A stretch of DNA of 64,000 bases from Stenopsyche tienmushanensis. Taxonomy: Eukaryota > Arthropoda > Insecta > Trichoptera > Stenopsychidae. The translations under genes were made by a program, and so were the position numbers. Shown here piece after piece: positions 170 to 19,626 of this stretch. The notes under the pieces are model-generated. The model had not been told where the DNA came from and did not search any database. It was given only the letters and a program-made list of their open reading frames with translations. The DNA lies in contig WACJ01000501.1 of the NCBI GenBank assembly GCA_008973525.1, positions 1,674,001 through 1,738,000 of the forward strand, in the 5' to 3' direction. Each line of letters begins with the position of its first letter. Positions within the stretch are counted from its first letter, which is position 1.

Positions 170-2541
170 TCAATGTCCTCTAGAGTGGGAGTGGGAGTGG
201 GAGTGGGAGTGAGAGTGGGAGTGAGAGTGGGAATGTGAGTGGGATCTTCTTTTTCCCCAAGCATTACCCTTTCCTCTAGAGTGCGATCCTTTATGCTTTG
301 AGTGAGATCTGTTATTTGAATGAGACCCCTTGTGTTTTGAATGAGATCCCTTGTGTTTTGAATGAGAATGCTTCTTTTTCTTCTTTTCATGAGAATGCGA
401 GTGGGAGTGCGAGTGAGATCCCTTTCTACGTTTTTTATTTTTCTTCCTAGAATTGGTTTCGGTGTTTTCCCAGGAATTATTCTCAGTATTTTCCCAGGCA
501 TTGGTTTCAGTATTCTCCCAAGCATTGGTTTCAGTATTTTCCCAGGAATTGTTTTCATTATTCTCCCAAGCATCTGTCTCAGTGTTTTCCCAGGCATTAT
601 TTTCATTATTTTCCCAAGTATCTGTCTCAGTGTTTTCCAACGCATTGTTTTCATTATTTTCCCAAGCATTAGATTCACTATTGCTCCAAGAACTATTTTC
701 ATTTTCATTTATTTCTCCAGCATTGCTTTCTGTGTTTGCATAGCTTTCAGAATAGGAATCGGAATGAGAATCTTCATTATTATCTATATTATTAGAAGTC
801 TTTGATCTACTTGTAGATTTTGAATAGGAATTGCTGGTTGCACTATTCTCAGACGAATTTATATTGGTATTGGTTTTAGTAGTTTTAGTCGTTTTTTTCA
901 TCTTCTTTTTCATCTTTTTATAGCTTTTGTCATATTCTGTCAACATATTATTCGCTAGTTCATTCCAATCATCGTCTGTTTCGGTTAGACTGTCACCTTC
1001 GTTTATGAAGTTCAACCAATCATTTTGAGTAGCTTCAGACCAGCTGTCGCTTTCTGACTGTGAACTAACTTCAGTTTGCTGATCATCGGAAGTAATAAAG
1101 CTCGAACTGCTTGAACTGCTCGCTGCAGAACTAACATTGTCATTGGTTATGATAGTTTGAGTCTTTTTTTTAGTTTTCTTCTTATTTTTTTTACATCCTT
1201 GATTGTACTCTGTCCACATGTTATTTGCAAGTTCATCCCAATTGTCGTCTGTATCAGTCAAACTGTCACCTTCATTTATGAAATCTAACCAATCACTCTG
1301 AGTAGCTTCAGACCAGCTGTTGCTTTCTGACTGTGTATAGACTTCTGCATTTTGGTCATTAGTTGTAGTGGAGCTCCAGCTATTTGAATCACTAGCTGCA
1401 TTGTTGTTGTTTAAAGATGCTTGGTCGTAGTCTGCCCACATATCATTTGCTAGTTCATCCCAATTTTCATCAGGTTCAGTCAAACTGTCACCTTCGTTTA
1501 TGAAATCTAGCCAATCACTCTGAGTAGCTTCAGACCAACTGTTGCTTTCTGACTGTGTATTGACTTCTGCATTTTGGTCATTAGTAGTAGTGGAGCTCCA
1601 GCTATTTGAATTACTAGCTGCATTGTTGTTGTTTAAAGATGCTTGGTCGTAGTCTGCCCACATATCATTTGCTAGTTCATCCCAATTTTCATCAGGCTCA
1701 GTCAAACTGTCACCTTCATTTATGAAATCTAGCCAATCACTCTGAGTAGCTTCAGACCAGCTGTTACTTTCTGACTGTGTATTGACTTCTCCATTTTGGT
1801 CATTAATAGTAGTGGAGCTCCAGCTATTTGAATTGCTAGCTGCATTGTTGTTGTTTAAAGATCCTTGGTCATAGTCTGCCCACATATCATTTGCTAATTC
1901 ATCCCAATGTTCATTAGGTTCAGTCAAATTACTATCATTGTCTAAGAATTCAAGCCAGTCATCTTGGGTTACTTGAGACCAGCTGCTACTTTCCGATTGC
2001 GACGAAATTTCAGGCTCAAAGTCGTTGAAAGTAGATGCTGAGCTTGAGGTACTGCTGCTGCTAGAGCTGATTGTGTTTTCAGTCATTATCGGTTTGGTTA
2101 CAGTTTCGTAATCTGCCCACATGTCGTTTGCTAATTGATTCCAATCATCGTCTGAATCGGATATTGTTTCATCATTTTTGAGAAACTCCTGCCAATCATT
2201 TTGCGTCTGCATATAGTCATCGTTATTAGGAGTTTCAATGATGTCATGTGATGTTGTTGTTATGTACAATGGGCTTTCAATATCATATTTTGCCCACTCG
2301 TCATTCTGAATATTTAGGATTTCTTCTTCTTTTATGTCGTTAATTCCAGTTGATTCCATCCAGATCGGTTCAGCTCGCATTTCACTTTCAATGTTATCAT
2401 ATTTAACAATAGAAAAATCATTATAGGTGACGGGTTCATCTGTTGGTGCTATTTTTTGTTGGACAATTGCTTGATCCATTGTCTTATATTGGTTAAAGGT
2501 GTCGAAGTCATTTGTAATGCCTCTTTTCGTATCAGTTGCCA
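170..2541 (-). CDS. Silk-like secreted repeat protein with Trp-Asp modules and a Ser-His tail (large 3' exon)
   Basis: One open exon of about 790 codons; not a family I can name. An acid- and Asn-rich N-terminal stretch is followed by four or more copies of a 74-residue module of the type SESNSWSEATQ / DWLDFINEGDSLT / NWDELANDMWADYDQ, with poly-Ser and Lys-rich spacers. Then come WENTETNAWENNE repeats and a tail of Lys/Arg with long Ser-His runs. The exon opens just after a good acceptor (TACTTTCAG, minus strand); the first in-frame codon would be GTG, so the true start lies in an unlocated upstream exon, probably with a signal peptide (inferred). The NNSW, Lys-rich, GSHS C-terminal layout matches the 2761-residue neighbour at 11341-19626, so they look like paralogues. 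Silk or adhesive function is inferred from composition and neighbours only. Clusters of Trp/Asp plus a His tail could bind metal ions. Confidence 0.75.
1038..1980 (-). repeat. 222-bp in-frame tandem repeat inside the Trp-Asp protein
   Basis: The same landmark (the SWSEATQ codons) recurs at 1311, 1533, 1755 and 1977, exactly 222 bases (74 codons) apart. A further, more diverged copy begins at 1038. The middle copies are near-identical, including silent sites, which suggests recent duplication or gene conversion. Confidence 0.85.
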
Positions 2542-2820
2542 CTGAAAGTATTTTTAATTAATTGATTAATTACTTAACATGCCATATAATTTAAGTATAC
2601 ATATAAAGATACATTTTGAGTCTTGCAGTGTAAGTAGTAAATATCTAGACGTAAGAAAAAAATAAAAATAGAGCTTAAAGCTGATTTAATAGACAGATTA
2701 AATACCAACCATTCCCAAATTCTCATAACAGGGATCGACACATTATATCAAAAACAAAAAGAATACGTCAACATTCTGCTCCGTCAAAATTTCAAAATTT
2801 CTCTCTGAATCAAGTACAGG
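2542..2820. other. Intron or upstream flank of the Trp-Asp protein gene
   Basis: AT-rich. It holds the splice acceptor directly before the exon. I searched the minus strand for a short ATG/signal-peptide exon with a donor site and found none that was convincing. Confidence 0.4.
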
Positions 2821-3314
2821 GCCTTTCAATAAGGACGCTCAAAATTTCTTAGGTTTTAGTGTTCATGATGTTAAAGTAACATATGTCAACTTTATTACAA
2901 ATTATTCAGCAGTATATAACAAAGTACCATTTAGTTTTTAGCGACGAAGCTCATTTTTAGATGAATGTGTTTGGATCGGATCAGGGACTATATCAATTCA
3001 CACTAATTTTGGAACCAATGGTTCCATAAGACTTCTCCTTTTGGGTCTACCTTAAATCGTAGGTCTATGCGTATTAGCCTCAAACAATTGATGGCCTCAA
3101 AGTCAACATAACAAACGCCATCCAACAAATTCAGCCAGATTTATGCGACAAGATAATCTAAAATTGTACCTCCCGAATACTTGACATTTGGACGTTATAT
3201 TCTATACTTAATGCCATAAAATATTATTTCAAATAAATATAAATTAAAAATGATACCTTACGCACAACCTGTTTTATTTATTGATTTAAAGATCGAGCGT
3301 CCTTATTTAAAGAT
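2821..3314 (+). mobile_element. Deleted Tc1/mariner-type element, copy A of a three-copy family
   Basis: Bounded by inverted AATAAGGACGCTC (left about 2829, right about 3299-3312). Plus-strand frames hold transposase remnants: FSDEAHF near 2938, then a broken 3' part resembling VYAY-PQTIDGLKVNITNAI, which is typical of the mariner-like C-terminus. It carries frameshifts and stops, so it is dead. Related copies are at 28408-29790 (minus) and 51713-52097. Confidence 0.75.
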
Positions 3315-4284
3315 CCCACTGGCCTAACTGAGAGAAGATTAAGAAAAATTGGCGTCTAGGCGAATGTATCTGGACAGAACTTTTCTATTTAAAGTTTTAA
3401 ATAATAGCATTAATTCTGCAGTCCTCTTAGGACAAGTGAAGCTTAGAATTCCTTGACCCTCCTCACGTTCAAAAGACATCTTTCATATCACACCTTACTA
3501 TACAAACTATGCAAAATGCCTTCTTTACATGTTTTTATTTCCGTTATAATATTTTTTTAGTGATGTGCATATGTTTTCCACTACACTTGGAAATTAAAAG
3601 CAAAATATTGGTGATTTAATCTTCAATCTTATTTTGTAACTTGTTTCATTATAGTAATAACTTTATGTTATTTGTGTGTAATAAAAATACTTAGTAGTCT
3701 GTAACATTTAATGGTACTTTATGTCTTTTTTAGTCAATTTTAAGTTTAATACTTGTACACTACTGTTTATTACATTTTAATAAATAAAAAACACCAATCA
3801 GTATCGCTCGATATGGATTTAAAATAATGAAATTAATTGTCAGATACAAATAAAAAATCATAAAATTTCGCATAATTATTTTTAAAACAAAATAACTAAC
3901 ATATTAGGGGTACCTGATGAAACTTTCGTTTTATGACATCGTTCTTTTCAACGGTCATTTGTTCACCGGTTGTCGATCTTGTACAACATGTATTTATTTT
4001 GAAATTGATTGGTAGTTATTTGAAGCAAACATTTTAAAAATAAAAGTTTGCATCCTATTTTCAAACGAAAGGATTTATAAAATTAAAATTTAAGCAAAAA
4101 TTACTCGAGATAAATTAAGAAAATATCAATTTAACTATTCACCAACCATATTAATCTGATTTTGCTCCATCGAATTATCGTTTAATTTGATCAATGCAGA
4201 TTTTTTTATAAGAATTTTAAGAATATCGAAGAAGTAAAAACGGGCCTGGATGACTATTTATATAAATGTTTTTTTTTTGTTTAC
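3315..4284. other. AT-rich intergenic DNA, no gene seen
   Basis: No ORF of note, no splice-supported exon and no terminal repeats were recognised. It lies between two transposon relics upstream of the Trp-Asp gene and could be intron of that gene. Confidence 0.4.
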
Positions 4285-5113
4285 AAGGTGTTTTGCACAT
4301 GGAGCAATTTTTTTTTTCTTTGGTTTAGGGGGGTTTTTGCTACGTTTCACACATAGGCCCTATGTCCTGAGTGTCAGTCAGGGTTGTCGAAATAGATTTG
4401 TTTCAACATTTTGAAAATGATTATTTATTTAAATCATGCTTAAAATTACTTCTGAGCTTCGAAAGTCACAAAAAGTGTGCAAACGAATGAGAAATGTCAA
4501 ATTTTAAATTCTTTAAAAAAAAAAACTGACGACTATTTTCTACTTGACTTCATCTTAGTTATAAAATATTCTTTAATTTATATAATTTCCAACGATATTA
4601 TTCAATAAGTCTTTAAACTCGAAGAGGTACCAGTTTGCCAGGGTCAGGGTTAAGAAAATACTTTTTATGCTTAAGATATTTTTATTAGATTTATTTACAA
4701 AATTTGTTCAATTTGGTCAAGATGAAGTCAAGTTGAAAATAGTCGTCAGTTTTTTGTTTAAAGAATTTAAAAGATGACGTTTCTCAATCGTTTGCACATT
4801 TTTTGTGATTTTCGAAGCTCAGAAGTAATTTTCTTTAAGCCAATTGCATAAAATAATGATCTAAATAAATCAAAAATATATTGCAAGATACAAAAATAGT
4901 TATTTCGTGTTATTACAGACTAAAAAATAGTTATTACAGATTAAAAAGTTATGTCGATTTAGAGGTGAAAATCAGGGTATTTTTTCAAAATGTTGAAAAA
5001 AAATCTATTTCGACAACCCTCACACTTAGGACATAGGATCAATGTGTGAAAAGTAGCAAAAGACCCCCCTAAACACAAAAAAAAAATTTTTGGTCCATGT
5101 GTAAAACACCCTG
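4285..5113. mobile_element. Fold-back-like non-autonomous element with very long inverted ends
   Basis: The left half (about 4285-4620) and right half (about 4715-5113) are reverse complements over most of their length, including the tip AGGGTGTTTTACACATGG (right end, minus sense) and inner blocks around GACGACTATTTTC. Homologous sequence at 24757-25225 and 26577-26660 flanks a mariner/IS630-type transposase remnant. This copy is therefore probably a deletion derivative of that family. No coding capacity. Confidence 0.75.
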
Positions 5114-5249
5114 TATATATTAAGTTGACTTTTTACACCTTGATCGGCCGATGTGGAGCTCCCAAAATATTGGGATTAACGATTTACCGCCATTGCGTCC
5201 TGTTCTCTGCACCAAATGCTTTAAAGTCAAGGAATCGACCGTTTTAATA

Positions 5250-6339
5250 TTAGGGGTATCGAAAAGTATTCGCGTAATTTGAGACTTAATGTTTGAGCTC
5301 AGTTTGTGTTCGGACACAGTGACGGAAACATCTTTGTAAGCATTTTTATCGGTAGAACTTTTGTTAAACATTGTTTTTGTCTATCATATTTTTATAAATT
5401 GTTTTTTTTTATTGTTGTTTTGTTTTTTATATGTTTTGTTTTTTATATGTTTTGTTTTTTATATGTTTTGTTTTTTATTTTTGTTAAGGCTATAATATCT
5501 AGAACCGAAACTAAAGAAGTTTACATCCGGCAATGTATGCTGCTTTTTTTAAATTTAGGTTGGAATACCATTAAAGCCACTAGACACTCAAAGATGTTTA
5601 TGGTGAAGTGGTAGCAGTCCGCAGGTACCAATATTAGTAGCATAAATTTAAATCGGGTAATGGAAGCATGGTCTCTAATCAAGTTAGATCCATGACAAAC
5701 AATTGAGGAGTCATCGCAAAGACTGGGATCCCATTGGGGTTGAATTTCAATTAAATACAATGGCTTTATCGGAAAAAAAAACTCCAATTTCCAATTCCCA
5801 AGGCCGAATTACCTATAAAAAAAAGTTTTTTTTTGTGCATATGGTGGATATGCGTGGAATAATTGGTTATGAATCAATGAAACCGGCAGAAACAATAACT
5901 ATACAAGTTTATTGTCGACAGTTTCCATTGAAAATTATAAGAGATGCGTCGGTTTTTATACAACAGAAAAGGATAATTCTCCATGATGATGCACGCCCTC
6001 ATAAAGCAAAAACTGGATAAAATACTGGAATTAATACTGGAAAGTGCTACCGCGCCCTTTTTATTCGCTGGACCTCACCTCAACGGATTTCCACCGTATC
6101 AGGTCCACGGCGAGACAAAAACGATTCAAAAATGCAGCTCACGTGGAAACGCATTAAAATTGCTTCTAAGCTGAAAAGTTTTTACAAAAAAGGAAGCGAA
6201 AGAATGCCAAAGCGATATGAAAAGATGTTCTGAATAATGAAGGGAATTATACATTACGATGTTATATTGAAAACGATTTGTTTTCAATAAATTTAAACTT
6301 TTTATACTAAATACGCGAACACTTTTCGATAACCCTAAC
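5250..6339 (+). mobile_element. Degenerate Tc1/mariner element with TIRs
   Basis: Terminal inverted repeats: left TAGGGGTATCGAAAAGTATT at 5251 and, in reverse complement at 6338, TTAGGGTTATCGAAAAGTGT. Plus-strand frames contain transposase pieces, VDMRGIIGYESMKPAETIT near 5850 and IILHDDARPHK near 5975, the DDE-domain signatures of mariner-type transposases. Frames are broken by stops and shifts. Confidence 0.85.
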
Positions 6340-7098
6340 ATAAAATTTAATGTTAAACGTAATTCATATTTACCTTTTTTGTTTGGACGTAGACATAGTT
6401 GTCTCACACTCGATGATAAATAGGATATGAAATAGGAGGCGAAAAGTGTTCAAATATGTGCATGTATATGTTTCACCCTGGTGGTCAATCATATTTGTCG
6501 AACCCTGTTATATCTATAATTTTATTGTTGTAAATTTTCCGGTTGTATAATTTCGTGTGTTGTAATAATGATTCTTAAGATATATTAATAGGAAAAGCAG
6601 TTTAACAATTTATTACATTTTTATATACATATCTTCGTCAGTTTACAATTAACGTGTAATCTGTTTGTATGTGTTCAGTTAAGTGTGCACCTAACCCTTG
6701 AATTGCGCGCTTTGGTTTTATGTCGGGACTATGTAAAGCTTGAAGCATAGGCTTGCTATACATGTTTTCAATAAATTTGATCCTTCCTTGAGGAGATCCA
6801 TTAGGAGGAGATGGGTCTGAAAATTTAAATTATAACGATATTGATGAATTGCTAGCCGATGAAGCAATCACAGACAATTATTTATTCAATTCTGAATCAA
6901 TTTTAAAGGGAATTATCATTACTGACTGCAAATAGTCTGAACGGAGTTCTTCAATAAATATAAAAATATGACTTATTGAAAGAAAGCATTTACTATAGAA
7001 AAAGACAATTGAAATGATGAGTAATATCACTCAATATCAGTTTCGCTATATAGAAGGCATACTTTTTTTTTATACGTTTATATATTTTTTTATATGGT
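6340..7098. other. AT-rich intergenic DNA, no gene seen
   Basis: Lies downstream of the Cys-rich gene. It contains T-rich runs and no convincing coding exon or terminal repeats. Confidence 0.4.
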
Positions 7099-7308: not shown

Positions 7309-10300
7309 TTAAGTAAAAATATGTGAATTATAAAAACCTTTTGAACATTTCTTGGCAAGTGTTGGTTTGTCGACCTCTAATGGAAAATATTCATCCGATG
7401 CACCCATTGACGAATCCTCACGGGAGAAAGACAAAGAGAACGAAATGGATTGTGGCAAAGTGCATCGAGGATTTTTCTTTTTACGGTTTATCAGGGATAG
7501 TAGGTGTGCATTGTTTTTGTGATTGTGAAGAAGGCGTTGTGGTTTTTTCCGATGACGCATGTAATTAGGTAAGAAATCCATGAATCTTCTTCTCCAGAAT
7601 ATTTTCCTAAGCTTGTAGTAGCGTCTAAGAATGGCCAAAATTCGGGAGTCGCTTTCCGTTTCGCAGCTGATGCTTATCGATTTATCAGATAACATTCCAA
7701 TATGTTTGAGATGCTTCAAAAATTTTTTGTGTTTCATTTTTTTGCGTGGATGTATTCCACCCCAGTGGTGCAATTCGTTAGAGTGCGACCCTGAAATTGA
7801 TATGCTGATGTCCAATTCGGGAGGAATATATTTATTGAAACGCGTTTTGTCTTCTATCGTTGTCTCTGGAAGTCTTCTATTGCATGGGCAGCCTTTGTTT
7901 GGGATTGTGTCTCTGTCATGGTACCAATTATTGAATTCATCCCATAATTCTGAAGATATAGAATTGTGGCCATGAGAAATTGCATATGCAGGATGGTTAT
8001 TCCAACGTGGATGCATTCCACCCCAGTGGTGCGATTCGCTAGAGCGCGACACTGAAATTGATATGCTGATGTCCAATTTGGGAGGAATATATTTATTGAA
8101 ACATTTTTTGTCTCCTATTATTTTCTTTGGAAGTCTTCTATTGCATGGGCAGCCTTTGTTTGGAATTGGGTCTCTATCATGGTACCAATGAATGAATTCA
8201 TCCCATAAATCTGAAGATATAGAATTATGGCCATGAGAAGTTGAACACGAAGAATGATGATTCCCAATAATATCACTGAAATCATGGTGATGATCTCTAT
8301 GGTATGAGTGATCGTCTTTGATTGTGTTAAACAAATCATTCATATTTTGCCAATTTGACATATCACGAAGCAAGCGGGCCATTATGTAGTTATCGTCGCA
8401 GCTATCACTATGAGACATATCAATATAGTTGTGCCAATCTGATAAATCATAACTATGATGACGATGACCACAATTTCCATGCGTAACGTAAATATCATTG
8501 TCTCTATGTATATTGTAGTTATTATATTGTAGCCAATTGATGTTAGAACCATGGTCATGGTGATCACAACACTCATGACTATGTGTATGTGTCTCAATAC
8601 TAGTACTATAATATGTATGATTATCTCCATATATATGGTGGATATTATCGATATCGACATTGACGTCAATATCATGATCATGGTCATCATGATCGCAGTG
8701 ACTTTGTTCTATGGTTGTTGTATTATTATTATTATATATATTGTATGTAATATTACATGAACGACAATCATTAGGATGATGGTGATGATCATTATTACGA
8801 TGGCAGCAACATTTTTCTACGTGAGGTTTATAAATACAATCATCTTTATGTTCATTGTACCAATTGTTGTATTCATTCCAATCAAAATCTCCCTCAGGTA
8901 AACTGTAATCGCCACCACCATTACCACAGCAATTTTCGTCATGGCCTACTATATGATGTATATATGACATATCATTGTGACAAACGTTATCGTTGCAATA
9001 GTGGTATTCATGCCAATCCATAAGTCCCTCATGAACACTGTAATCACTATTCAGCGTACAATCTTCTTCTACATAAATTTCATCGTCCTTATTTACATTA
9101 TACCATTCGTTGAATTCGTCCCAATTTATATCTCCAACGTGGACGCTGTAGTCATCAGCATTGGGTGCAAGGCAAATCGCATCTCCATCCGTTGTATATA
9201 TTTCTTGGTCTTTATCGTCACGGTACCAATTGTCATACTCGTACCATTTGCAATCTTCCACATAGACGCTGTAGTCATCACTAGCATGATCTGTACAATA
9301 GTCAAGTATATAAATTTCATCGTCCTTATTTACATTATACCAGTTGTCAAAGTCGCTCCAACATATATTTCCCTCGTAGACGGAGTAGTTATCATTTAGA
9401 TGTTCCTGGCAAATTACATCTCCATCCGTTGAATAAATTTCAACATGATTTTTTTCTCCATACCAATTGCCATATTCATCCCATGCTGAATCATCTTCAT
9501 CTTCTGACCATATTGCTCTGTGCTTATCCCATACAATGTTGCAAGAATCACAAGAAATGCAAGAATCACAAGATTTGCAAGAATCACAATTGCCAGAATG
9601 ACAAGATTTGCAAGAATCACAAGAATTGCAAGATCCACTAGACTTGCAAGAATCACAAGAATTGCCAGAATGACAAGAATTGCAAGAATGACAAGAATTG
9701 CAAGAATCACTCGAATTGCAAGTATCACAAGAATTACATGAATCACAAGAATTGCAAAAATTCCATGAATTCCAAGAATTCCAAATATCACAAGAATTGA
9801 CAGAAGCATGAGAATTGCAAGAATCACAAGATTTGCAAGAATCACAAGAATTGCGAGATTCACAAGATTTGCAAGAATCACAAAAATCGCAAGAATTACT
9901 AGAATTGTCAGAATGACAAGAATTGCAAGAATCACAAGAACCACACGAATTGCAAGATTCACAAGAATTGCATGAATCACAAGAATTGCAAGAATCACAA
10001 GAATCGCAAGAACCACAAGAACTGCAAGAATCACAAGGATCGCAAGAACCACAAGAATCACAAGAATTGCAACAATTGCAAGGTTTGCAAGAAGGACCTC
10101 CGCAATCCTTTACAGATTCCCAATTGAATAATTCTTCCATGTGGCAATCTTCCCCACAAGTATTGAAGCAATGACAAGAATTGCAATTGCAAGAATCACA
10201 AGAATTGCATTTGCAGGAATCACAAGAATTGCAATTGCAAGAATCACAAGAATTGCAAGAATCACAAGAGTTACAAGAATGACAAGAATTGCAATCGCAA

Positions 10301-10644
10301 GAATCACAAGAATTCCAATTGCAGGAATCACAAGAATTGCAATTGCAGGAATCACAAGAATTGCAATTGCAGGAATCACAAGAATTGCAAGAATGGCACG
10401 AATTGCACGAATCGCAAGAATTACAAGCATTGCAAGAATCACAAGAATTGCAAAAATCACAAGAATTGCAAGAATTGCAAGAATGACAAGAATTGCACGA
10501 ATCGCAAGAATTGCAAGTATCACATCCGCACTCCTTCGTCCAGGATTCCCATCTTCTTAAATCTTCTCCACAGTTGCATGTTCCCTCTTGATGTTCAAGA
10601 CCAGTTGTAGAATGCCAGCCGAATGCTGAAGGTCGCCCGATTCC
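7309..10644 (-). CDS. Silk-like Cys-Asn-Ser / Trp-Asp-Tyr / His-rich repeat protein (large 3' exon)
   Basis: Open for 1111 codons plus stop. It is read from the acceptor TATATTTCAAG at 10645 in phase 0 (Gly-Ile-Gly-Arg), not from the internal ATG at 10140, because the same frame stays open with the same Cys repeat to 10644. In order: a short leader with CNCGEDLRRWESWTKECGC; a ~330-residue array of Cys-(Asn/Asp/His/Lys)-Ser tripeptides; units of about 45 residues built on NWYNVNKDDEIY and YSVYEG; an acidic His-rich block (HDDHDHD, HTHSHECCDHHDHG); a duplicated SSDLWDEF / DPIPNKGCPCNRRLP segment; and short (Ser-X)n runs (LDISISISVSRSSES). A signal-peptide exon should lie upstream but was not found. 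The exon start matches the neighbour at 19626, so I infer a divergent paralogue. Function is unproven. The Cys density suggests disulfide cross-linking or metal binding in an extracellular fibre or glue. Confidence 0.8.
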   Translation of the reverse strand, partial: GIGRPSAFGWHSTTGLEHQEGTCNCGEDLRRWESWTKECGCDTCNSCDSCNSCHSCNSCNSCDFCNSCDSCNACNSCDSCNSCHSCNSCDSCNCNSCDSCNCNSCDSCNWNSCDSCDCNSCHSCNSCDSCNSCDSCNCNSCDSCKCNSCDSCNCNSCHCFNTCGEDCHMEELFNWESVKDCGGPSCKPCNCCNSCDSCGSCDPCDSCSSCGSCDSCDSCNSCDSCNSCESCNSCGSCDSCNSCHSDNSSNSCDFCDSCKSCESRNSCDSCKSCDSCNSHASVNSCDIWNSWNSWNFCNSCDSCNSCDTCNSSDSCNSCHSCNSCHSGNSCDSCKSSGSCNSCDSCKSCHSGNCDSCKSCDSCISCDSCNIVWDKHRAIWSEDEDDSAWDEYGNWYGEKNHVEIYSTDGDVICQEHLNDNYSVYEGNICWSDFDNWYNVNKDDEIYILDYCTDHASDDYSVYVEDCKWYEYDNWYRDDKDQEIYTTDGDAICLAPNADDYSVHVGDINWDEFNEWYNVNKDDEIYVEEDCTLNSDYSVHEGLMDWHEYHYCNDNVCHNDMSYIHHIVGHDENCCGNGGGDYSLPEGDFDWNEYNNWYNEHKDDCIYKPHVEKCCCHRNNDHHHHPNDCRSCNITYNIYNNNNTTTIEQSHCDHDDHDHDIDVNVDIDNIHHIYGDNHTYYSTSIETHTHSHECCDHHDHGSNINWLQYNNYNIHRDNDIYVTHGNCGHRHHSYDLSDWHNYIDMSHSDSCDDNYIMARLLRDMSNWQNMNDLFNTIKDDHSYHRDHHHDFSDIIGNHHSSCSTSHGHNSISSDLWDEFIHWYHDRDPIPNKGCPCNRRLPKKIIGDKKCFNKYIPPKLDISISISVSRSSESHHWGGMHPRWNNHPAYAISHGHNSISSELWDEFNNWYHDRDTIPNKGCPCNRRLPETTIEDKTRFNKYIPPELDISISISGSHSNELHHWGGIHPRKKMKHKKFLKHLKHIGMLSDKSISISCETESDSRILAILRRYYKLRKIFWRRRFMDFLPNYMRHRKKPQRLLHNHKNNAHLLSLINRKKKNPRCTLPQSISFSLSFSREDSSMGASDEYFPLEVDKPTLAKKCSKGFYNSHIFT
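9530..10530 (-). repeat. 9-bp minisatellite encoding (Cys-X-Ser)n
   Basis: About 1 kb of near-perfect 9-base units (minus strand TGCAATTCT / TGTGATTCT) with a few in-frame 6-base variants giving Cys-Asn pairs. One non-repeat interruption at about 10050-10150 encodes CHMEELFNWESVKDCGGPSC. All unit sizes are multiples of three, so the frame is kept. Expansion and contraction between individuals is likely. Confidence 0.9.
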
Positions 10645-11191
10645 CTTGAAATATATAAAGGTGATGTAAATGCCATCGTCTTTTGTGCTTTATTTAAATA
10701 GTACATTATGAAATAAACTTTGTCTTTGATCTTGTTTTCGATGTTATCTTTTTCTATTCCTCATAATCCTATAAGATTCGCAATCGTTTGCCAATGAACT
10801 CATTATATAGATACAGTGACCATATATCCTCTTCTTAATAAGGAACACTCCTTATTTGAGAGGCTCTGAATTTATTTCTCCAAAAACATCTATCGTCTTT
10901 TATTTTTTGTTTCATTTCATCATTTACTAAAACCAAATAGGATTTGTTTAGTATTTTGATAAAGTTTAACAATATTTTATTTTGACACGAGCCTTCGTAA
11001 AAAAAATGTAAATACAGAATAGTTCTATTCGCATATGCTTTTCTTATTTTTGTTCCTTATTTAAAAGAAATACATATATGGTCCCTGTATGCATTCAAGT
11101 GTATGTTATAATATGTTGATGTCATGTAAATGTAGGGTTGGTGTTTGCTTTGGAATGAAATCAAATCAAACTAAATCTTTGTGTTGAAATT
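10645..11191. other. Intron or upstream flank of the Cys-rich gene; spacer to the next gene
   Basis: Holds the acceptor at 10645-10650. An ATG at about 10672 (minus) opens a short frame but is out of frame with the exon. No signal-peptide exon was identified, and no transposon was recognised. Confidence 0.4.
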
Positions 11192-11197
11192 TTTATT
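11192..11197 (-). terminator. Poly(A) signal AATAAA for the 2761-residue repeat protein
   Basis: Minus-strand AATAAA about 145 bases past the stop codon at 11341, at a normal spacing for an insect 3' UTR. Confidence 0.55.
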
Positions 11198-11340: not shown

Positions 11341-14300
11341 CTATTTTTTCCCCTTTCCTTTGCCTTTTCCCTTGCAACCGCAATGGGATCCATTTTTTTT
11401 ATTTTTTCTTTCGTGTGATCCAGAATGGGAACCGGAATGCGAACCGGAATGCGAACCGGAATGCGAACCGGAATGCGAACCAGAGTGTGATCCCTTTTTG
11501 CCTTTTTTATTTTTTTTATTTTTATTCCAGCTGTTATTTTCGTTTTTATTCCAAGCATTCGAGTTAGAATTGCTCCAAGCGTTCGAGTTAGATCCACTCC
11601 ATGCATTTGCTTCAGAAATACTTCCGCTCCCCGAACCCGCTCCGCTCCAAGCATTGGAACTAGCGCTGCTCCAAGCACCGGCTTCAGAATTGTTATCATC
11701 ATTGTTATCATTATCGTTCCAAGCATTTGAACTAGCGCTGCTCCAAGAACTGGATTCAGAATAGCTCTCACTATTGTTATCATCATCGCTTTGAGCACTT
11801 GAACTAGCGCTGCTCCAAGAACTGGATTCAGAATAGCTCTCACTATTGTTATCATCATCGCTTTGAGCATTTGAACTAGCACTGCTCCAAGAACTGGATT
11901 CAGAATAGCTCTCACTATTGTTATCATCATCGCTTTGAGCACCTGAACTAGCGCTGCTCCAAGAACTGGACTCAGAATAGCTCTCACTATTGTTATCATT
12001 ATCGCTTTGAGCACCTGAACTGGCGCTACTCCAAGCACTTGATTCAGAATAGCTATCATCTCCATCGCTAGCTACGCTTGAAGAACTTGAGCTGGCTGTT
12101 GAGGTTCCACTGGCAGATGAGCTTGATGCACTACTTGACGAACTGACTGTATTTTGTTCGGGTTGTATTTTTTTCAGATTTCTAGCAACACTGGTGGAGG
12201 AACTTGAACTACTTGATGAACTGGAGCTAATGCCTGAATCAGAATCATTAATGTTTGGTGATGAACTGGAACTACTGGATGAGCTTGAGGTAACTGCAAT
12301 GACTTCCTCGCGTTTTGGCTCATAGATAATAGGTTTAACTGGTTTTGGTTCATAGATAATAGGTTTAACTGGTCTTGTATCTTCGATGCTAATAGATATC
12401 GATACAGATTTTGCAATCGGTTTAGTGATGGGCCGAACTGGACCCGAATTTTCAATGCTAATAGATATCGATACAGATTTCACAATCGGTTTAGGAATGG
12501 GCTTTTCGTACGAAGCACTGAACGAAATCGAATATGAAGCATTTTTTTTATGGGGATGACGACAACCACATAGTTTCTGCCAGGCATAATATCCATGGTG
12601 GCATCTCTTATACCCAGGCCTGTAGATGGGAGAGTCCGAAATGCTATAAAAATCTGAATTACTTCTGCTATCTTGGTTCAAAATAAACAGCAGTCTGAGG
12701 AATCTCTTTTTCCAATATAAAGCTCTTTTACTTTGTTTTATATTCAATGGTTTCGAGCGTTTGGAGCCTAGGTGATTTTCGATGCTAATACTAATGCTTA
12801 GTCCTGGATGTCTTGGCGAGCCCGCTAACGAAAAGTGTCTGTTTGTATGTTTGTTTGTACCTTTGAATGGTTTTACTTCGCCAGACGACGATATAGAGAT
12901 AGAAACACTATTTCTGGATTTCTTTGGACGCACATATTCTCCAGATTGAGAGATGGAGATAGACAAGCTATAGCTCTTAAATCCTGGATAACCATGCTTA
13001 TAAATATGTTTATAAGGTTTGTTGTTCTTCCAATGTGTTATTTCTTTGGATATTGATTTAGATATGGAAATACTATAGCTATCGTCGCCGGGATATTTTC
13101 CCTTTTTGTGATAGTGCTTATGAGGTTGGTAAGGCAAGTTTTCAACTGAAGTTGAGATGGAGATTGACAAGCTATAGCTCTTAAATTCTGGATAACCATG
13201 CTTATAAATATGTTTATAAGGCTTGTTGTTCTTCCAGTGTGTTATTTCTTTGGATATTGATTTAGATATGGAAATACTATAGCTATCGTCGCCGGGATAT
13301 TTTCCCTTTTTGTGATAGTGCTTATGAGGTTGGTAAGGCAAGTTTTCAACTGAAGTTGAGATGGAGATTGACAAACTATAGCTCTTGGCTCCTGGATAAC
13401 CATGTTTATAAATATGTTTATAAGGCTTGTTATTCTCCCAGTATGATACCTCATTAGATATTGATTCGGATATGGAAATACTGTAGCTATCATCGCCGGG
13501 ATACCTTCCCTTTTTGTGATAGTGCTTATGTGGTTTGTATGGTAATCGTTCAATAGAGTTTGAAATTGATATAGAGATACTTCCAGTATTTTTTACAAGA
13601 TGAGGCAACTTTTTATGAACGTGCTTACGTAATTTATTGCCATTTGAGGATCGCTCTCTGGATGAAGATATTGAAATAGAAACGCTAAAGCTCTTGAATC
13701 CAGGTCCTCCACGTTTGTGGTAATGTTTGTAAGGCTTATTATTTTTCCAATGAGTTATTTCTTTAGAAATTGATTGAGAAATTGAAACACTAAAGCTAGT
13801 GTCTCCAGGATACTTTCCTTTTTTGTGAACGCGTTTATGTGGATTTTGTCTAGGAAAATAATGATTTTCAATAGATTGCGAAATCGAAATAGAGATGCTA
13901 TTTTTGCCATTTCTTCTATTATTGGGCTTGAGCCCACTTTCATTAGATTGGGAAATCGAGATGGATAAGCTAAAGCTTTGGAATTTAGGACCTCTACGTT
14001 TGTGATAATGGTTGTATGGCTTATTGTTCTTCCAGTGAGTTATTTCATTTGAGATCGACCTTGAAAGAGAGAAGCTGAAGCTTGGTTTTCCAAGACGACT
14101 TCCTTTCTTGTGAATGCGCTTGTAAGGTTTTTTCTGCCCTGGATAGAATATGTGTTTCTTAGTGTATGGCTTGAATGGTTTCTTTCCTTTCCAAGGTCCG
14201 TTTTCAAAAGATTTTGAAATCGAGATGGACAGACTGAAGCTATTGAATTTCCTGCATCCGGGTTTATGGTAGTGATTGTATGGTTTGTTATTCTTCCAGT

Positions 14301-17300
14301 GGGTTACTTCATTCGAGATCGATCTTGAAAGAGAGAAGCTGAAGCTTGGTTTTCCAAGACGACTTCCTTTCTTGTGAATGCGCTTGTAAGGTTTTTTCTG
14401 CCCTGGATAGAATATGTGTTTCTTAGTGTATGGCTTGAATGGTTTCTTTCCTTTCCAAGGTCCGTTTTCAAAAGATTTTGAAATCGAGATGGACAGACTG
14501 AAGCTATTAAATTTCTTGCATCCGGGTTTGTGGTAGTGATTGTATGGCTTGTTATTCTTCCAGTGAGTTACTTCATTGGAGATTGACCTTGAAAGAGAGA
14601 AGCTGAAGCTTGGTTTCCCGAGATGACTACCTTTCTTATGAATGCGCTTGAATGGTTTTCTACCGCCATTGTAGATGTGTTTCTTGTAGTAAGGTTTGGA
14701 AGGTTTTTTTCCTTTCCAAGGCCCATTTTCAATAGATTTTGAAATCGAGATGGACAAACTAAAGCTATTGAATTTCTTGCATCCGGGCTTGTGGTAGTGA
14801 TTATATGGCTTGTTATTTTTCCAATGGGTTATTTCATTGGAGATCGATCTTGAAAGAGAGAAGCTGAAACTTGGTTTTCCGAGATGACTTCCTTTCTTGT
14901 AAATGCGTTTGTAGGGTTTTTTCTGCCCTGGATAGAATATGTGTTTCTTAGTGTATGGTTTGAATGGTTTCTTTCCTTTCCAAGGCCCATTTTCAATAGA
15001 TTTTGAAATCGAGATGGACAGACTGAAGCTATTAAATTTCCTGCATCCGGGCTTATGGTAGTGATTGTACGGTTTGTTATTTTTCCAATGAGTTATTTCA
15101 TTGGAGATCGACCTTGAAAGGGAGAAGCTGAAGCTCGGTTTTCCAAGATGACTTCCTTTCTTATGAATGCGCTTGTAGGGTTTTTTACCGCCATTGTAGA
15201 TCTTCTTCTTATAGTATGGTTTTCCACCTTTCACAGTTTCGATTGATTTCGAAATGGAGATTGAAATACTTGTGCTAACATTCTTCTTAATGAGTTGATT
15301 AGAATAATTTCTCTTTTCGTTGGACTGAGAAATGGAAATGGATATGCTTGTACTGCCATTTTTTCTATTTTTGGGTTTAAGCCAACTTTCATTTGACTGT
15401 GAAATTGAGATAGATAGACTGAAGCTATTAAACTTCTTACAACCAGGTTTATGGTAGTGATTGTATGGTTTGTTATTTTTCCAATGAGTTATTTCATTGG
15501 AGATCGATCTTGAAAGGGAGAAGCTGAAGCTTGGTTTTCCAAGATGACTTCCTTTCTTATGAATGCGCTTATAAGGTTTTTTACCGCCATTGTAGATCTT
15601 CTTCTTGTAATATGGTTTTCCACCTTTCACAGATTCGATTGATTTCGAAATGGAGATTGAAATACTTGTACTAACGTTTTTCTTGATAAACTTTTTAGGC
15701 CTATTTCTCCTCTCGTTGGATTCAGATATCGAAATAGAGATGCTATTACTGCCATTTCTTCTATTATTGGGCTTGAGCCCACTTTCATTAGATTGGGAAA
15801 TCGAGATAGATAAACTAAAGCTGTTGAATCCAGGTCCTCTACGTTTATGGTAGTGATTATAAGGCTTGTTATATTTCCAGTGGGTTACTTCATTGGAGAT
15901 CGATCTTGAAAGGGAGAAGCTGAAGCTTGGTTTTCCAAGATGACTTCCTTTCTTATGAATGCGCTTATAAGGTTTTTTACCGCCATTGTAGATCTTCTTC
16001 TTGTAGTATGGTTTTCCACCTTTCACAGATTCGATTGATTTCGAAATGGAGATTGAAATACTTGTACTAACGTTCTTCTTGATAAAATTTTTAGGCCTAT
16101 TTCTCCTCTCGTTGGATTCAGATATCGAAATAGAGATGCTATTACTGCCATTTCTTCTATTATTGGGCTTGAGCCCACTTTCATTAGATTGGGAAATCGA
16201 GATAGATAAACTAAAGCTGTTGAATCCAGGTCCTCTACGTTTATGGTAGTGATTATAAGGCTTGTTATATTTCCAGTGGGTTACTTCATTGGAGATCGAT
16301 CTTGAAAGGGAGAAGCTGAAGCTTGGTTTTCCAAGATGACTTCCTTTCTTATGAATGCGCTTATAAGGTTTTTTACCGCCATTGTAGATCTTCTTCTTGT
16401 AGTATGGTTTTCCACCTTTCACAGATTCGATTGATTTCGAAATGGAGATTGAAATACTTGTACTAACGTTCTTCTTGATAAAATTTTTAGGCCTATTTCT
16501 CCTCTCGTTGGATTCAGATATCGAAATAGAGATGCTATTACTGCCATTTCTTCTATTATTGGGCTTTAACCCACTTTCATTAGATTGGGAAATCGAGATG
16601 GATAAGCTAAAGCTTTGGAATTTAGGACCTCTACGTTTGTGATAATGGTTGTATGGCTTATTGTTCTTCCAGTGGGTTATTTCGTTGGAGATCGACCTTG
16701 AAAGTGAGAAGCTGAAACTTGGTTTTCCAAGATGACTTCCTTTCTTGTGAATGCGCTTGTAAGGTTTCTTCTGCCCTGGATAGAATATGTGTTTCTTAGT
16801 ATATGGCTTGAATGGTTTCTTTCCTTTCCAAGGTCCATTCTCAATGGATTTTGATATCGAGATGGACAGACTGAAGCTATTGAATTTCTTGCATCCGGGT
16901 TTATGGTAGTGATTGTATGGCTTATTATTCTTCCAGTGAGTTATTTCATTGGAGATTGATCTTGAAAGAGAAAAGCTGAAGCTTGGTTTTCCGAGATGAC
17001 TTCCTTTCTTGTGAATACGTTTGTAGGGTTTTTTCTGACCTGGATAGAATATGTGTTTCTTAGCGTAAGGCTTGAATGGCTTCTTTCCTTTCCATGGCCC
17101 ATTTTCAATAGATTTTGAAATCGAGATGGACAGACTGAAGCTATTGAATTTCTTGCATCCGGGTTTGTGGTAGTGATTGTATGGCTTGTTATTCTTCCAA
17201 TGGGTTATTTCGTTGGATATAGACCTTGAAAGAGAAAAGCTGAAGCTTGGTTTCCCGAGATGGCTGCCTTTCTTATGAATGCGCTTGAATGGTTTTTTAC

Positions 17301-19626
17301 CGCCATTATAAATATGTTTCTTGTAGTAAGGCTTGAATGGTTTCTTTCCTTTCCAAGGCCCATTTTCAATAGATTTTGAAATCGAGATGGACAGACTGAA
17401 GCTATTGAATTTCTTGCATCCGGGTTTGTGGTAGTGATTATATGGCTTGTTATTTTTCCAGTGGGTTACTTCATTCGAGATCGATCTTGAAAGAGAGAAG
17501 CTGAAGCTTGGTTTTCCGATATATCCTCCTTTCTTATGAATGCGTTTGTAGGGTTTTTTCTGCCCTGGATAGAATATGTGTTTCTTAGTATATGGTTTGA
17601 ATGGTTTCTTTCCTTTCCAAGGTCCGTTTTCAAAAGATTTTGAAATCGAGATGGACAGACTGAAGCTATTGAATTTCTTGCATCCGGGTTTGTGGTAGTG
17701 ATTGTATGGCTTGTTATTCTTCCAGTGAGTTACTTCATTGGAGATTGACCTTGAAAGAGAGAAGCTGAAGCTTGGTTTCCCGAGATGACTACCTTTCTTA
17801 TGAATGCGCTTGAATGGTTTTTTACCGCCATTGTAGATGTGTTTCTTGTAGTAAGGTTTGTAAGGTGTTCCACTCTTAACTTTTTCAATAGAACTCGAAA
17901 CGGAGATCGAAATACTTGTACTATCATTCTTCTTAATTGGATTTTCAGACTTATTTATTTTTTCACCAGACTGAGAAATTGAAATAGATATGCTAGTACT
18001 GCCATTTTTTCCATATTTGGGTTTGAGCCAACTTTCATTTGATTGTGAAATCGAGATAGACAGGCTGAAGCTTTGGAATTGTGGACTTCTACGTTTGTGA
18101 TAATGGTTGTATGGCTTATTTTTCTTCCAATGAGTTATTTCATTTGAGATTGACCTCGAAAGAGAGAAACTGAAGCTAGGTTTTCCGAGATGACTTCCCT
18201 TCTTGTGAATGCGCTTGTATGGCTTTTTCTGTCCGGGGTAGTAAACATGTTTTTTTGTATATGGTTTGAATGTTTTTTTACCCTTGTAAGGTCTCTTGTA
18301 GTATGGTCTATTTGTGGAGTATCCTTTCCTTGGGTAATTTTCTCCAGATTGAGAGATGGAAATGGACAGACTGAAACTTTGGAAGTTAGGACCTCCGCGC
18401 TTGTGATAGTGATTATAAGGTCTATTATTCTTCCAGTGCGTTATTTCATTTGATATTGATCTCGAAACGGAGAAACTAAAACTCGAATCTCTCGAATTAA
18501 TTCCACGCCTGCGAATTCTTCTGTGTGAATTTTTAGGGCCGATATGAATGCCAACTTTGTTATTTTCTATCGATATCGAAATTGAAAGGCTGAAACTGTT
18601 GAAATTAGGTCTTCGGCCTTTGTGATAGTGATTGTATGGTTTGTTGTTCTTCCAGTGTGTTATTTCATTGGAGATTGACTGAGAGATTGAGAAGCTGAAA
18701 CTGTCCAATCCCAGGTGACTGCCCTTCTTGTGAATTCGCTTATATGGCTTTCCATTTTTATAGGCGTGTTTCTTGTAATATGGTTTAATTGTTTTTTCGA
18801 TCGATGTGGAGATGGAAATCTTCGCGGGTGCTCGTTCGTTAGAATTGGATATCGAGATGGACAAACTATAACTACTGTACCCTGGGCCTCTTGGTTTGTG
18901 GATATGTTTGTATGGCTTCTTGTTACGGTAGTGTGTTATCTCGTTTGACACTGATTCAGAGTACGAAATGCTGTAGCTGGCTTGTCCAGGGTATTTACCT
19001 CGTTTGTGGATGTATTTGTGTGGTTTCTTTATTCTTTCCACAGATTCTGAAATCGATACTGATAAGCTGATGCTATCGTAGTCGGGATGTTTTCGGATTC
19101 TTTTATGCGGATTCTTTCCTTTCAAAAATAATTCGCTGGACACTGAAGTGGAAAAGGAGAAGCTTTCGATATCATCTTCATTCAGTTGAACTGCGTTCAC
19201 TTCGTTGGAGTTATAAGCGATAGCAGTGGCACCGTATGGGGTTGCTATACTTCCTGCGCCTCCTTCTCCATCGCTGGACGTTCCGATGATGGTGACTCCG
19301 TCATCATCTTCGATGCCCGCTATGGTTTGGGATCCACTCAAAGTGCTATCGCTTCCGGAAAATGTTCCATGTCCGTCAGAATCGTGCGATTCTGCATACC
19401 CATGAGCATTTTCACCACTCGTGAAAGAATAAGAAGTTCCATCACTGTCTGAGCCAGTACTCGAGTAACTAGTTTTACCATCTGGTCCTGTGCTCGAGGA
19501 CCACGATTGGGAGAATCCCCCTCCGTTACCACAGGAAGAAGAGCTAGAGGAGCTACTCGAAAAGCTCGATGAGCTGCTTGAGCCCCATCCTGGGTGAAAA
19601 TTGCATGGCGATGCTCGTACGATCCC
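11341..19626 (-). CDS. Giant (Ser-X)n-Glu / Lys-His-Tyr repeat protein, silk or sericin-like (large 3' exon)
   Basis: An uninterrupted 2761 codons plus stop in one exon. It begins at the acceptor TATTTTAAG before 19626 in phase 0 (Gly-Ile-Val-Arg). Residues 1-150: Ser/Gly/Asp-rich head with a CNFHPGW start. Residues ~150-2270: about 21 modules alternating a basic linker (KPYKRIHKKGSHLGKP, THWKNNKPYNHYHK) with Ser-every-second-residue blocks (SFSFSLSRSISNE, SISISKSIE). Residues ~2440-2761: poly-Ser, five SESYSESSSWSSASS units, NAWNKNENNSWNK, GSHSGSHS and a last GSHCGCKGKGKGKGKK. (SX)nE blocks are the hallmark of phosphorylated caddisfly H-fibroin, and Ser-rich repeats with a Cys-x-Cys end recall moth sericins (family knowledge). 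The Gly-rich spacers of H-fibroin are absent. The signal-peptide exon was not found. I infer an extracellular, probably phosphorylated, silk or adhesive component. Confidence 0.85.
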   Translation of the reverse strand, partial: GIVRASPCNFHPGWGSSSSSSFSSSSSSSSSCGNGGGFSQSWSSSTGPDGKTSYSSTGSDSDGTSYSFTSGENAHGYAESHDSDGHGTFSGSDSTLSGSQTIAGIEDDDGVTIIGTSSDGEGGAGSIATPYGATAIAYNSNEVNAVQLNEDDIESFSFSTSVSSELFLKGKNPHKRIRKHPDYDSISLSVSISESVERIKKPHKYIHKRGKYPGQASYSISYSESVSNEITHYRNKKPYKHIHKPRGPGYSSYSLSISISNSNERAPAKISISTSIEKTIKPYYKKHAYKNGKPYKRIHKKGSHLGLDSFSFSISQSISNEITHWKNNKPYNHYHKGRRPNFNSFSLSISISIENNKVGIHIGPKNSHRRIRRRGINSRDSSFSFSVSRSISNEITHWKNNRPYNHYHKRGGPNFQSFSLSISISQSGENYPRKGYSTNRPYYKRPYKGKKTFKPYTKKHVYYPGQKKPYKRIHKKGSHLGKPSFSFSLSRSISNEITHWKKNKPYNHYHKRRSPQFQSFSLSISISQSNESWLKPKYGKNGSTSISISISQSGEKINKSENPIKKNDSTSISISVSSSIEKVKSGTPYKPYYKKHIYNGGKKPFKRIHKKGSHLGKPSFSFSLSRSISNEVTHWKNNKPYNHYHKPGCKKFNSFSLSISISKSFENGPWKGKKPFKPYTKKHIFYPGQKKPYKRIHKKGGYIGKPSFSFSLSRSISNEVTHWKNNKPYNHYHKPGCKKFNSFSLSISISKSIENGPWKGKKPFKPYYKKHIYNGGKKPFKRIHKKGSHLGKPSFSFSLSRSISNEITHWKNNKPYNHYHKPGCKKFNSFSLSISISKSIENGPWKGKKPFKPYAKKHIFYPGQKKPYKRIHKKGSHLGKPSFSFSLSRSISNEITHWKNNKPYNHYHKPGCKKFNSFSLSISISKSIENGPWKGKKPFKPYTKKHIFYPGQKKPYKRIHKKGSHLGKPSFSFSLSRSISNEITHWKNNKPYNHYHKRRGPKFQSFSLSISISQSNESGLKPNNRRNGSNSISISISESNERRNRPKNFIKKNVSTSISISISKSIESVKGGKPYYKKKIYNGGKKPYKRIHKKGSHLGKPSFSFSLSRSISNEVTHWKYNKPYNHYHKRRGPGFNSFSLSISISQSNESGLKPNNRRNGSNSISISISESNERRNRPKNFIKKNVSTSISISISKSIESVKGGKPYYKKKIYNGGKKPYKRIHKKGSHLGKPSFSFSLSRSISNEVTHWKYNKPYNHYHKRRGPGFNSFSLSISISQSNESGLKPNNRRNGSNSISISISESNERRNRPKKFIKKNVSTSISISISKSIESVKGGKPYYKKKIYNGGKKPYKRIHKKGSHLGKPSFSFSLSRSISNEITHWKNNKPYNHYHKPGCKKFNSFSLSISISQSNESWLKPKNRKNGSTSISISISQSNEKRNYSNQLIKKNVSTSISISISKSIETVKGGKPYYKKKIYNGGKKPYKRIHKKGSHLGKPSFSFSLSRSISNEITHWKNNKPYNHYHKPGCRKFNSFSLSISISKSIENGPWKGKKPFKPYTKKHIFYPGQKKPYKRIYKKGSHLGKPSFSFSLSRSISNEITHWKNNKPYNHYHKPGCKKFNSFSLSISISKSIENGPWKGKKPSKPYYKKHIYNGGRKPFKRIHKKGSHLGKPSFSFSLSRSISNEVTHWKNNKPYNHYHKPGCKKFNSFSLSISISKSFENGPWKGKKPFKPYTKKHIFYPGQKKPYKRIHKKGSRLGKPSFSFSLSRSISNEVTHWKNNKPYNHYHKPGCRKFNSFSLSISISKSFENGPWKGKKPFKPYTKKHIFYPGQKKPYKRIHKKGSRLGKPSFSFSLSRSISNEITHWKNNKPYNHYHKRRGPKFQSFSLSISISQSNESGLKPNNRRNGKNSISISISQSIENHYFPRQNPHKRVHKKGKYPGDTSFSVSISQSISKEITHWKNNKPYKHYHKRGGPGFKSFSVSISISSSRERSSNGNKLRKHVHKKLPHLVKNTGSISISISNSIERLPYKPHKHYHKKGRYPGDDSYSISISESISNEVSYWENNKPYKHIYKHGYPGAKSYSLSISISTSVENLPYQPHKHYHKKGKYPGDDSYSISISKSISKEITHWKNNKPYKHIYKHGYPEFKSYSLSISISTSVENLPYQPHKHYHKKGKYPGDDSYSISISKSISKEITHWKNNKPYKHIYKHGYPGFKSYSLSISISQSGEYVRPKKSRNSVSISISSSGEVKPFKGTNKHTNRHFSLAGSPRHPGLSISISIENHLGSKRSKPLNIKQSKRALYWKKRFLRLLFILNQDSRSNSDFYSISDSPIYRPGYKRCHHGYYAWQKLCGCRHPHKKNASYSISFSASYEKPIPKPIVKSVSISISIENSGPVRPITKPIAKSVSISISIEDTRPVKPIIYEPKPVKPIIYEPKREEVIAVTSSSSSSSSSSPNINDSDSGISSSSSSSSSSSTSVARNLKKIQPEQNTVSSSSSASSSSASGTSTASSSSSSVASDGDDSYSESSAWSSASSGAQSDNDNNSESYSESSSWSSASSGAQSDDDNNSESYSESSSWSSASSNAQSDDDNNSESYSESSSWSSASSSAQSDDDNNSESYSESSSWSSASSNAWNDNDNNDDNNSEAGAWSSASSNAWSGAGSGSGSISEANAWSGSNSNAWSNSNSNAWNKNENNSWNKNKKNKKGKKGSHSGSHSGSHSGSHSGSHSGSHSGSHERKNKKNGSHCGCKGKGKGKGKK
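14091..14620 (-). repeat. 264-bp in-frame repeat in the giant Ser-X protein
   Basis: Identical landmarks (minus-strand coding for KKGSRLGKPSFSF) sit at 14091 and 14355, 264 bases or 88 codons apart, with near-identical intervening sequence. Further copies with the PGQKKPYKRIHKK and NGGKKPFKRIHKK linkers continue up to about 17860. Confidence 0.85.
15540..16730 (-). repeat. 396-bp higher-order repeat, three near-identical copies
   Basis: Blocks starting near 15540, 15937 and 16333 are almost identical over exactly 396 bases (132 codons), including third positions. Each contains two different linkers and three Ser-X blocks. This is a recent duplication of a composite unit inside the exon. Confidence 0.9.

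Follow-up and report, generated by a model that had tools for sequence, protein, structure and literature searches.

Giant exons on the minus strand

The window, that is the whole 64,000-nucleotide stretch of DNA analysed here (contig C501:1674001-1738000 of the Stenopsyche tienmushanensis assembly, which comprises 451,459,302 bases in 549 contigs), contains three long minus-strand reading frames without a stop codon, at positions 170-2557 (795 aa), 7309-10689 (1126 aa) and 11341-19710 (2789 aa). With boundaries placed after the splice acceptors, the corresponding exons are designated C1 (2541-170), B1 (10644-7309) and A1 (19626-11341). In ten 64-kb first-order Markov sequences, the longest frame without a stop was 122-163 aa per sequence, which argues against a chance origin of the three frames and bears out the proposal of an earlier note on this DNA that three real giant exons follow acceptors on this strand. 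The same note had reported a Gly-Ile-x-Arg start in phase 0 for the two larger exons, which was found as GIGR and GIVR, each directly behind an AAG acceptor; the smallest exon, C1, has a cag acceptor with implied phase 1.

Giant exon A1 (11341..19626, minus strand) encodes 2761 aa of a basic (SX)n protein (pI 10.2) rich in K, I and N, with 20.8% Ser, 13.9% Lys and 7.1% Gly. It begins with a domain of about 148 aa that is conserved in the A exons (19183..19626, minus strand), and for which a prediction from the single A1 sequence gave an all-strand model that is unusable (pLDDT 37). Tandem repeats of (SX)nE and basic aromatic linkers with periods of 204, 264 and 396 bp occupy 12950..17823 (minus strand), and 50 (SX)n blocks alternating with such linkers were counted in A1 by one pattern. 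A YWKKRFLRLL motif is located at 12688..12717 and an AATAAA polyadenylation-like signal lies 3' of the exon at 11192..11197, both on the minus strand. Runs of the (SX)4 type ending in E number 56 in A1, 3 in B1 and 1 in C1; the highest counts in 200 residue shuffles per protein were 2, 1 and 2, respectively, so that C1 is not above chance, and the short (SX)n runs previously noted in both the middle and the largest exon exceed those of the shuffles.

Giant exon B1 (7309..10644, minus strand), with a phase-0 acceptor and the start GIGRPSA, encodes 1111 aa with a pI of 5.1 (127 kDa unprocessed), including 173 Asp and Glu residues and 11.6% Cys. An NSCDSC-type Cys array extends over 9539..10524 (minus strand); [N/D/H/K/G]SC pairs number 31 in B1 and at most 3 in any of 200 shuffles. 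The motif FWRRRFMDFL is found at 7570..7599 (minus strand). The "Cys-type" chemistry attributed to this member of the trio thus holds for B1 itself and does not extend beyond it, as the duplicate exon B2, described below, is half as long, has 2.2% Cys and lacks the array.

Giant exon C1 (170..2541, minus strand; acceptor cag|TG) encodes 789 aa after the splice codon, with a pI of 4.4, 148 Asp and Glu residues and 4.7% Trp. Repeats of 222 bp with the unit DWLxF...WDELANDMWADY are present at 1198..1928 (minus strand), and two helices were predicted with low to moderate confidence from single-sequence input. The S-W, N-W and K-S-H tails that had been described as common to the first and last exons are present.

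Signal exon and promoter of the first unit

A scan for an ATG with a hydrophobic start and a donor detected a predicted signal-peptide exon of 18 codons, MAFSPWKIGVLLLLLSLN, at 21293..21346 on the minus strand, 1.7 kb upstream of A1, with the phase-0 donor AAT|GTGAGT. Further upstream are a TATAAATA box (21485..21492, minus strand), which is part of a 230-bp promoter module of units U1 to U4 and a putative TATA promoter, and an initiator-like TCAGTC site (21461-21456, minus strand) about 30 bases downstream of the box. The earlier note would have given up its reading if no signal-peptide exon existed; one is predicted here and in every unit of the cluster, and this exon and the wider cluster are additions to what had been read from the DNA before.

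A tandem cluster of five units

The trio C1/B1/A1 is the first unit (U1) of a cluster of five tandem units on the same strand. The cluster covers about 110 kb (contig 1586004 to about 1695460), contains 11 giant exons along with 5 signal exons and continues about 88 kb past the left edge of the window. The four further units lie in the 100 kb to the left and span contig C501:1586004-1664300 (window -87996 to -9700). Their minus-strand signal exons are at contig 1664113 for U2, which has A2, B2 and C2 and is a tandem duplicate of the window trio, 1640751 for U3 (A3, B3), 1618944 for U4 (A4, B4) and 1590181 for U5 (D5); the minus-strand scan for signal exons returned 17 rows below contig 1700000, with these five among them. 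B4 is a 2406-aa exon with GGGGAAAASSAASAAAAGG repeats and D5 a 914-aa Ser/Gly exon. The region upstream of U5 has no match to the promoter model of U1 to U4. Modules of D5 look by eye like the A N-terminal domain, and with a blastp E of 0.28 and no profile match homology is not claimed. The contrast in charge between exons is greatest in U1 and U2 and small in U3 (pI 7.2 for A3 and 6.2 for B3).

No giant silk-like frame was detected in a further 40 kb to the left of U5 (to contig 1534001), and neither the promoter model nor the signal-exon model has another match in the 100 kb to the right of the window. This right-hand region has plus-strand frames, the longest of 636 aa, and some of them are rich in Gly/Pro or Ser/Gly; two at contig 1795265-1798866 (plus strand, some 57-61 kb beyond the right edge), one Gly/Pro-rich with 466 aa and one Ser/Gly-rich with 636 aa, perhaps belong to another repetitive secreted protein.

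Regarding divergence between units, 2 of the 54 bases distinguish the signal exons of U1 and U2, in each case by a synonymous change, intron 1 has 66% aligned identity over its first 700 bases, and a blast block with the promoter, signal exon and part of intron 1 has 87%. The U1 and U3 promoters are 72% identical over 176 bp; the A exons of these units are saturated at synonymous sites. An artefact of haplotypes is an unlikely origin of U1 and U2, since both are on one 3.09-Mb contig, divergence is 6-18% in 10 of the 11 listed blocks touching non-exon parts and 28% in the remaining block, and the exons have dS values of 0.07-0.26 over the six stretches measured.

Relationships and selection among the giant exons

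In all eight A and B exons the acceptor is in phase 0 and ends in AAG, and the encoded sequence starts with GIVRAS, GIGRPS or ELVRAT. The motif YWKKRFLRLL is present in A1, A2, B3 and B4, with YWKTRFLRLL in A3 and FWRRRFMD in B1 and B2 (seven of the 11 exons in total). The C exons are without this motif and have the S-W/N-W and S-H tail in common with A1. On these sequence features, namely the common acceptor, the GIVR/GIGR/ELVR start, the (SX)n blocks and the YWKxRF/FWRRRF motif, A and B are paralogous putative terminal exons, which together with the predicted signal exon lends support to the earlier view of a cluster of paralogues that code for secreted fibre or glue proteins.

The ratio dN/dS for A1/A2 was 0.063 at the N-terminus and 0.40 at the C-terminus; the N-terminal domains of A1 and A3 are 59% identical, with dS saturated. 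For C1/C2 the value was 0.194 over the whole exon and 0.646 over the first 130 codons, and for the N-termini of B3/B4 and A3/A4 it was 0.268 in both cases. Values for B1/B2, 0.73 over 225 C-terminal codons and 1.78 over the first 30 codons (few sites), suggest weak constraint in the parts measured. Stop-free frames of 539-2406 codons are found in all four B and both C exons.

Other features of the window

Between B1 and C1, an exon-like frame PSPPNGSPQGRIKFIENMYSKPMLQALHSP...TDYTLIVN with an AG ahead of it is present at 6640-6830 (minus strand); it has no PDB match at E <=10, and its stretch is without a match in the shorter gap of U2. Two hAT transposase ends, 86.6% identical and both with Pfam PF05699, are located at 26827-27505 and 28865-29528 (plus strand). 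Related copies at 3029-3311, 28408-28713 and 51711-51945 (69-81% identical) are of what we take, from frames read by eye, to be a Tc1/mariner-like element, and inverted repeats were detected at 4717-5081 and 24793-25128 (72% identical) and, as a neighbouring pair, at 4282-4417 and 4982-5115 (84%). A single-exon frame at 40986-42455 (minus strand) with CRAL/TRIO and MSP domains, presumably MOSPD2-like, has one genome match among the 7 candidates scored, and a 371-aa frame of ordinary composition at 32547-33662 (plus strand) has no Pfam match.

Evidence for one signal exon per unit

In 304 kb on both strands, the signal-exon profile matched five places (weakest E 6.7e-12; next E 1.7) and the profile of promoter and leader from U1 to U4 matched four (E 1.6e-61 or better; next E 0.089), so that the promoter module occurs once per multi-exon unit. 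Neither model has a match ahead of any B or C exon in the same 304 kb; as the profiles were built from the very places that they matched, only this absence of further copies is informative. Regarding the gaps between giant exons, a lax scan for an ATG with a hydrophobic start and a donor of at least 3/7 gave none among 48 ATGs ahead of B1 (705 bp, 15 ATGs), B2 (696 bp, 16) and C2 (1026 bp, 17). Candidate rows were obtained in the other gaps, nine weak ones with donors of 3-4 of 7 in the U1 B-C gap (77 ATGs), six in the U3 A-B gap (19 ATGs), one of these with a phase-1 donor of 5, and 17, most of them weak, in the U4 A-B gap (66 ATGs, A4 included). The best phase-0 candidate, with a donor of 5/7 reached from three nested ATGs, is in the U4 A-B gap, in sequence without a match in U3.

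A4 (contig 1613588-1612291) has a frameshift near residue 242 and its C-terminal part is missing, no match to A3 residues 448-1108 having been found between A4 and B4. The stretch between A4 and B4 contains frames which, named by eye, we take to be reverse-transcriptase-like and mariner-like. U4 retains its promoter, a signal exon with no difference from that of U3 at 54 bases, and an open B4, which would fit use of the unit's signal exon by B4; the argument is a soft one, as intron 1 of U3 and U4 is still 94.5% identical and little time may have passed.

The joining of C is less straightforward. C1 and C2 both have the cag|TG acceptor, which requires an upstream exon ending in phase 1, and the main donor of the signal exon is in phase 0. 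A second GT of the signal exon, 4 bases further on, is in the right phase for C and was judged by eye to be a poor donor. Inspection by eye gave a single in-frame phase-0 acceptor for C, the AAG ahead of ACA in C1, which was rejected as C2 has AAA there. C may instead be spliced from a donor within A or B: none of 6/7 was detected in A1, B1, A2 or B2, but A1 has 8 and B1 has 3 donors of 5/7, and the signal-exon donors of U3 and U5 also score 5. A general depletion of internal donors in the giant exons is not claimed, as 8 of 11 are without a 6/7 donor but shuffled exons are often likewise.

Interpretation and alternatives

The exons, signal exons, promoter count, conservation, motifs and composition, all observed directly, would be best explained by a silk-gland secretory gene cluster, each multi-exon unit of which has a single promoter and a single signal exon ahead of giant alternative last exons, with a probability of about 0.58 as judged from the DNA sequence. 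The layout of the trio looks less like three independent genes than like one promoter and one signal exon and then three giant last exons. The alternative last exons are supported by the single signal exon per unit, the empty gaps before B1, B2 and C2, the matching phase-0 acceptors of eight of eight exons and the paralogy of A and B, and further by U4, by selection (on A1/A2, C1/C2 and B3/B4) and by the precedents of two-exon silk genes and, in caddisfly silk, of acidic proteins in the outer coat and phosphorylated (SX)4 motifs. The reading is weakened by the phase of C, the weak constraint on B1/B2, the candidates in the U1 B-C, U3 A-B and U4 A-B gaps, a B start exon possibly of a kind missed by the scan, and the reported relative rarity of alternative splicing among the silk genes of Limnephilus lunatus. 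Compared with a gene that has alternative last exons, the genomic layout fits for A and B, with C out of phase with the main donor.

Silk-gland expression, alternative splicing, phosphorylation and assembly are what we infer from these observations. Transcription of each multi-exon unit would begin at a single TATA promoter and run through a single short exon for the signal peptide. The phase-0 donor of this exon would be spliced to any one of several giant terminal exons with separate stops and 3' ends, namely to A or B in units 1-4 and, in units 1-2, perhaps alternatively to C. A single gene may in this manner give rise to a set of large repetitive proteins, basic A1 and the acidic D/N/H/W- or Cys-rich B1 and C1. 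The (SX)n blocks of A1, with SFSFSLSRSISNE-type blocks as candidate phosphate bearers, are probably phosphorylated and Ca2+-bridged as in H-fibroin, and the A1, B1 and C1 proteins would be expected to form the adhesive coat of underwater silk, linked to one another through charge, metals and disulfides. It is put at even odds that these are alternative-last-exon silk loci, in which two or three mutually exclusive giant exons (1.6-8.3 kb) depend on the same promoter and secretion exon and, in U1, give products of opposite charge and different cross-linking chemistry.

The most serious rival, although clearly less probable, is that these are separate ordinary two-exon silk genes of the pseudofibroin or cadhesin type and that the first exons and promoters belonging to B and C went unrecognised. 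The relatives published from caddisflies are, as far as the accessible parts of those reports go, separate clustered genes with mostly two exons, three gaps (U1 B-C, U3 A-B and U4 A-B) do contain signal-exon candidates, mostly weak, and the phase-0 acceptor of B would be inherited under this explanation too. Against it are the 705-, 696- and 1026-bp gaps that hold no candidate, the promoter and signal-exon models that have no further copy ahead of B or C, and the position of the best U4 candidate in sequence unmatched in U3. A version in which only the A exons and D5 work as genes, B and C being promoterless duplicated exons that are decaying or rarely expressed, would suit the strong differences between B1 and B2 (a Cys array in one, the high C-terminal dN/dS, the halved length of B2), but the open frames of all four B and both C exons and the dN/dS of C1/C2 and of the B3/B4 N-terminus make it improbable. 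Ser-rich structural proteins secreted by another tissue (cuticle, eggshell, peritrophic matrix) are more doubtful still, for while the A1, B1 and C1 proteins have no Pfam match but one under the family cut-off (B1, E 0.18), the (SX)4..E motifs of A1 are of a type known from caddisfly H-fibroin, and a short signal exon with a giant repetitive exon is the layout of caddisfly silk genes.

If the preferred reading of shared signal exons and alternative last exons is right, a single promoter could supply the silk gland with components of opposite charge, the choice of splicing and polyadenylation would set how much polycation the underwater glue contains relative to polyanion, and new silk chemistries would arise by duplication of terminal exons inside a gene and not by gene duplication, the Cys array in one duplicate exon (B1) and missing from its partner (B2) being an example of such a change. 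The cluster itself, 110 kb of genes for giant proteins of the (SX)n, Cys and acidic kinds, provides concrete candidates for the adhesive coat.

Comparison with known silk systems

S. tienmushanensis is a net-spinning caddisfly (PMC6302954). Repetitive silk proteins from two-exon genes have been published, so the earlier description of the trio as an undescribed system was too strong for the proteins, which resemble the known pseudofibroins and cadhesins; the shared-exon arrangement is the part for which no published match was found in the open-access literature searched. A short signal exon with a long repetitive exon is present in all five units, with the assignment of B and C resting on the proposed layout. 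The five pseudofibroins (Pfib) of Plectrocnemia conspersa (Annulipalpia) have the same layout of short and giant exons and the same clustering, Pfib2A and 2B being adjacent, and are thought to coat the fibroin core; the accessible text describes them as separate genes with Ser-Ala/Ser-Gly motifs and describes no signal exon shared by giant exons (PMC9432349). The cadhesins Caz1-12 of L. lunatus are likewise clustered, heterogeneous and Ser/Thr-rich, mostly with a short signal-peptide exon and a long repetitive exon, but alternative splicing of the silk genes of that species was reported, in the part accessible, to be relatively rare, unlike what is proposed here (PMC11092239). In the open-access literature searched, no report was found of a signal exon common to several giant terminal silk exons. 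The likeness of the cluster to Pfib and Caz rests on descriptions and not on sequences.

H-fibroin is the best-described protein of caddisfly silk, which adheres underwater. FibH and A1 both have (SX)n motifs, a short first exon and a giant coding region. In accessible parts of the literature, the FibH intron of S. tienmushanensis comes after codon 14, compared with 18 codons here, and FibH of this species has been published as a complex of two genes that measures 21 kb and has GGX/GPGX repeats (PMC6302954), whereas A1 is K/I/N-rich with a much lower Gly content than FibH (27.8% in L. lunatus, PMC11092239). H-fibroin is characterised by a gene position between pros and DRSC, as described in one source, and by Gly-rich GGX/GPGX repeats with SXSXSX; A1 does not show such Gly-rich repeats, having (SX)n with low Gly and high Lys. 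PDB searches at E <=10 gave 1 match with the A1 N-terminus and 9 with a 4-row profile, no fibroin chain among them, in a PDB set that may contain no fibroin chain.

The sericin-like/cadhezin-like proteins of the moth Neomicropteryx cornuta, large silk proteins in small clusters (of the 7 listed, 6 have two exons), resemble the present units, with no shared exons reported in the accessible text, in contrast to the proposal here (PMC11906653). Lepidopteran Ser1 proteins are described in a partly accessible source as having a CXCX motif near the C-terminus, and CGC is found near the end in A1 and A2 only (2 of the 11 exons). Bombyx Ser1 is described as alternatively spliced. Its arrangement is probably a different one from a signal exon shared by giant exons. 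TIL/EGF2 domains of the zonadhesin-like kind were not detected by Pfam at E <=1 in the Cys-rich B1.

Regarding function, the (SX)n serines of caddisfly H-fibroin are described, in accessible parts of the sources, as phosphorylated and metal-bridged into beta domains, and the outer coat of caddisfly silk as rich in acidic proteins (PMC6302954, PMC12976744). Smsp-72k of Stenopsyche marmorata, a Cys-rich charged silk-gland protein suggested in the accessible text to be an underwater adhesive (PMC4363863), is, compared by description, Cys-rich like B1 and from the same genus, with B1 at 127 kDa before processing, and it is a candidate relative of B1.
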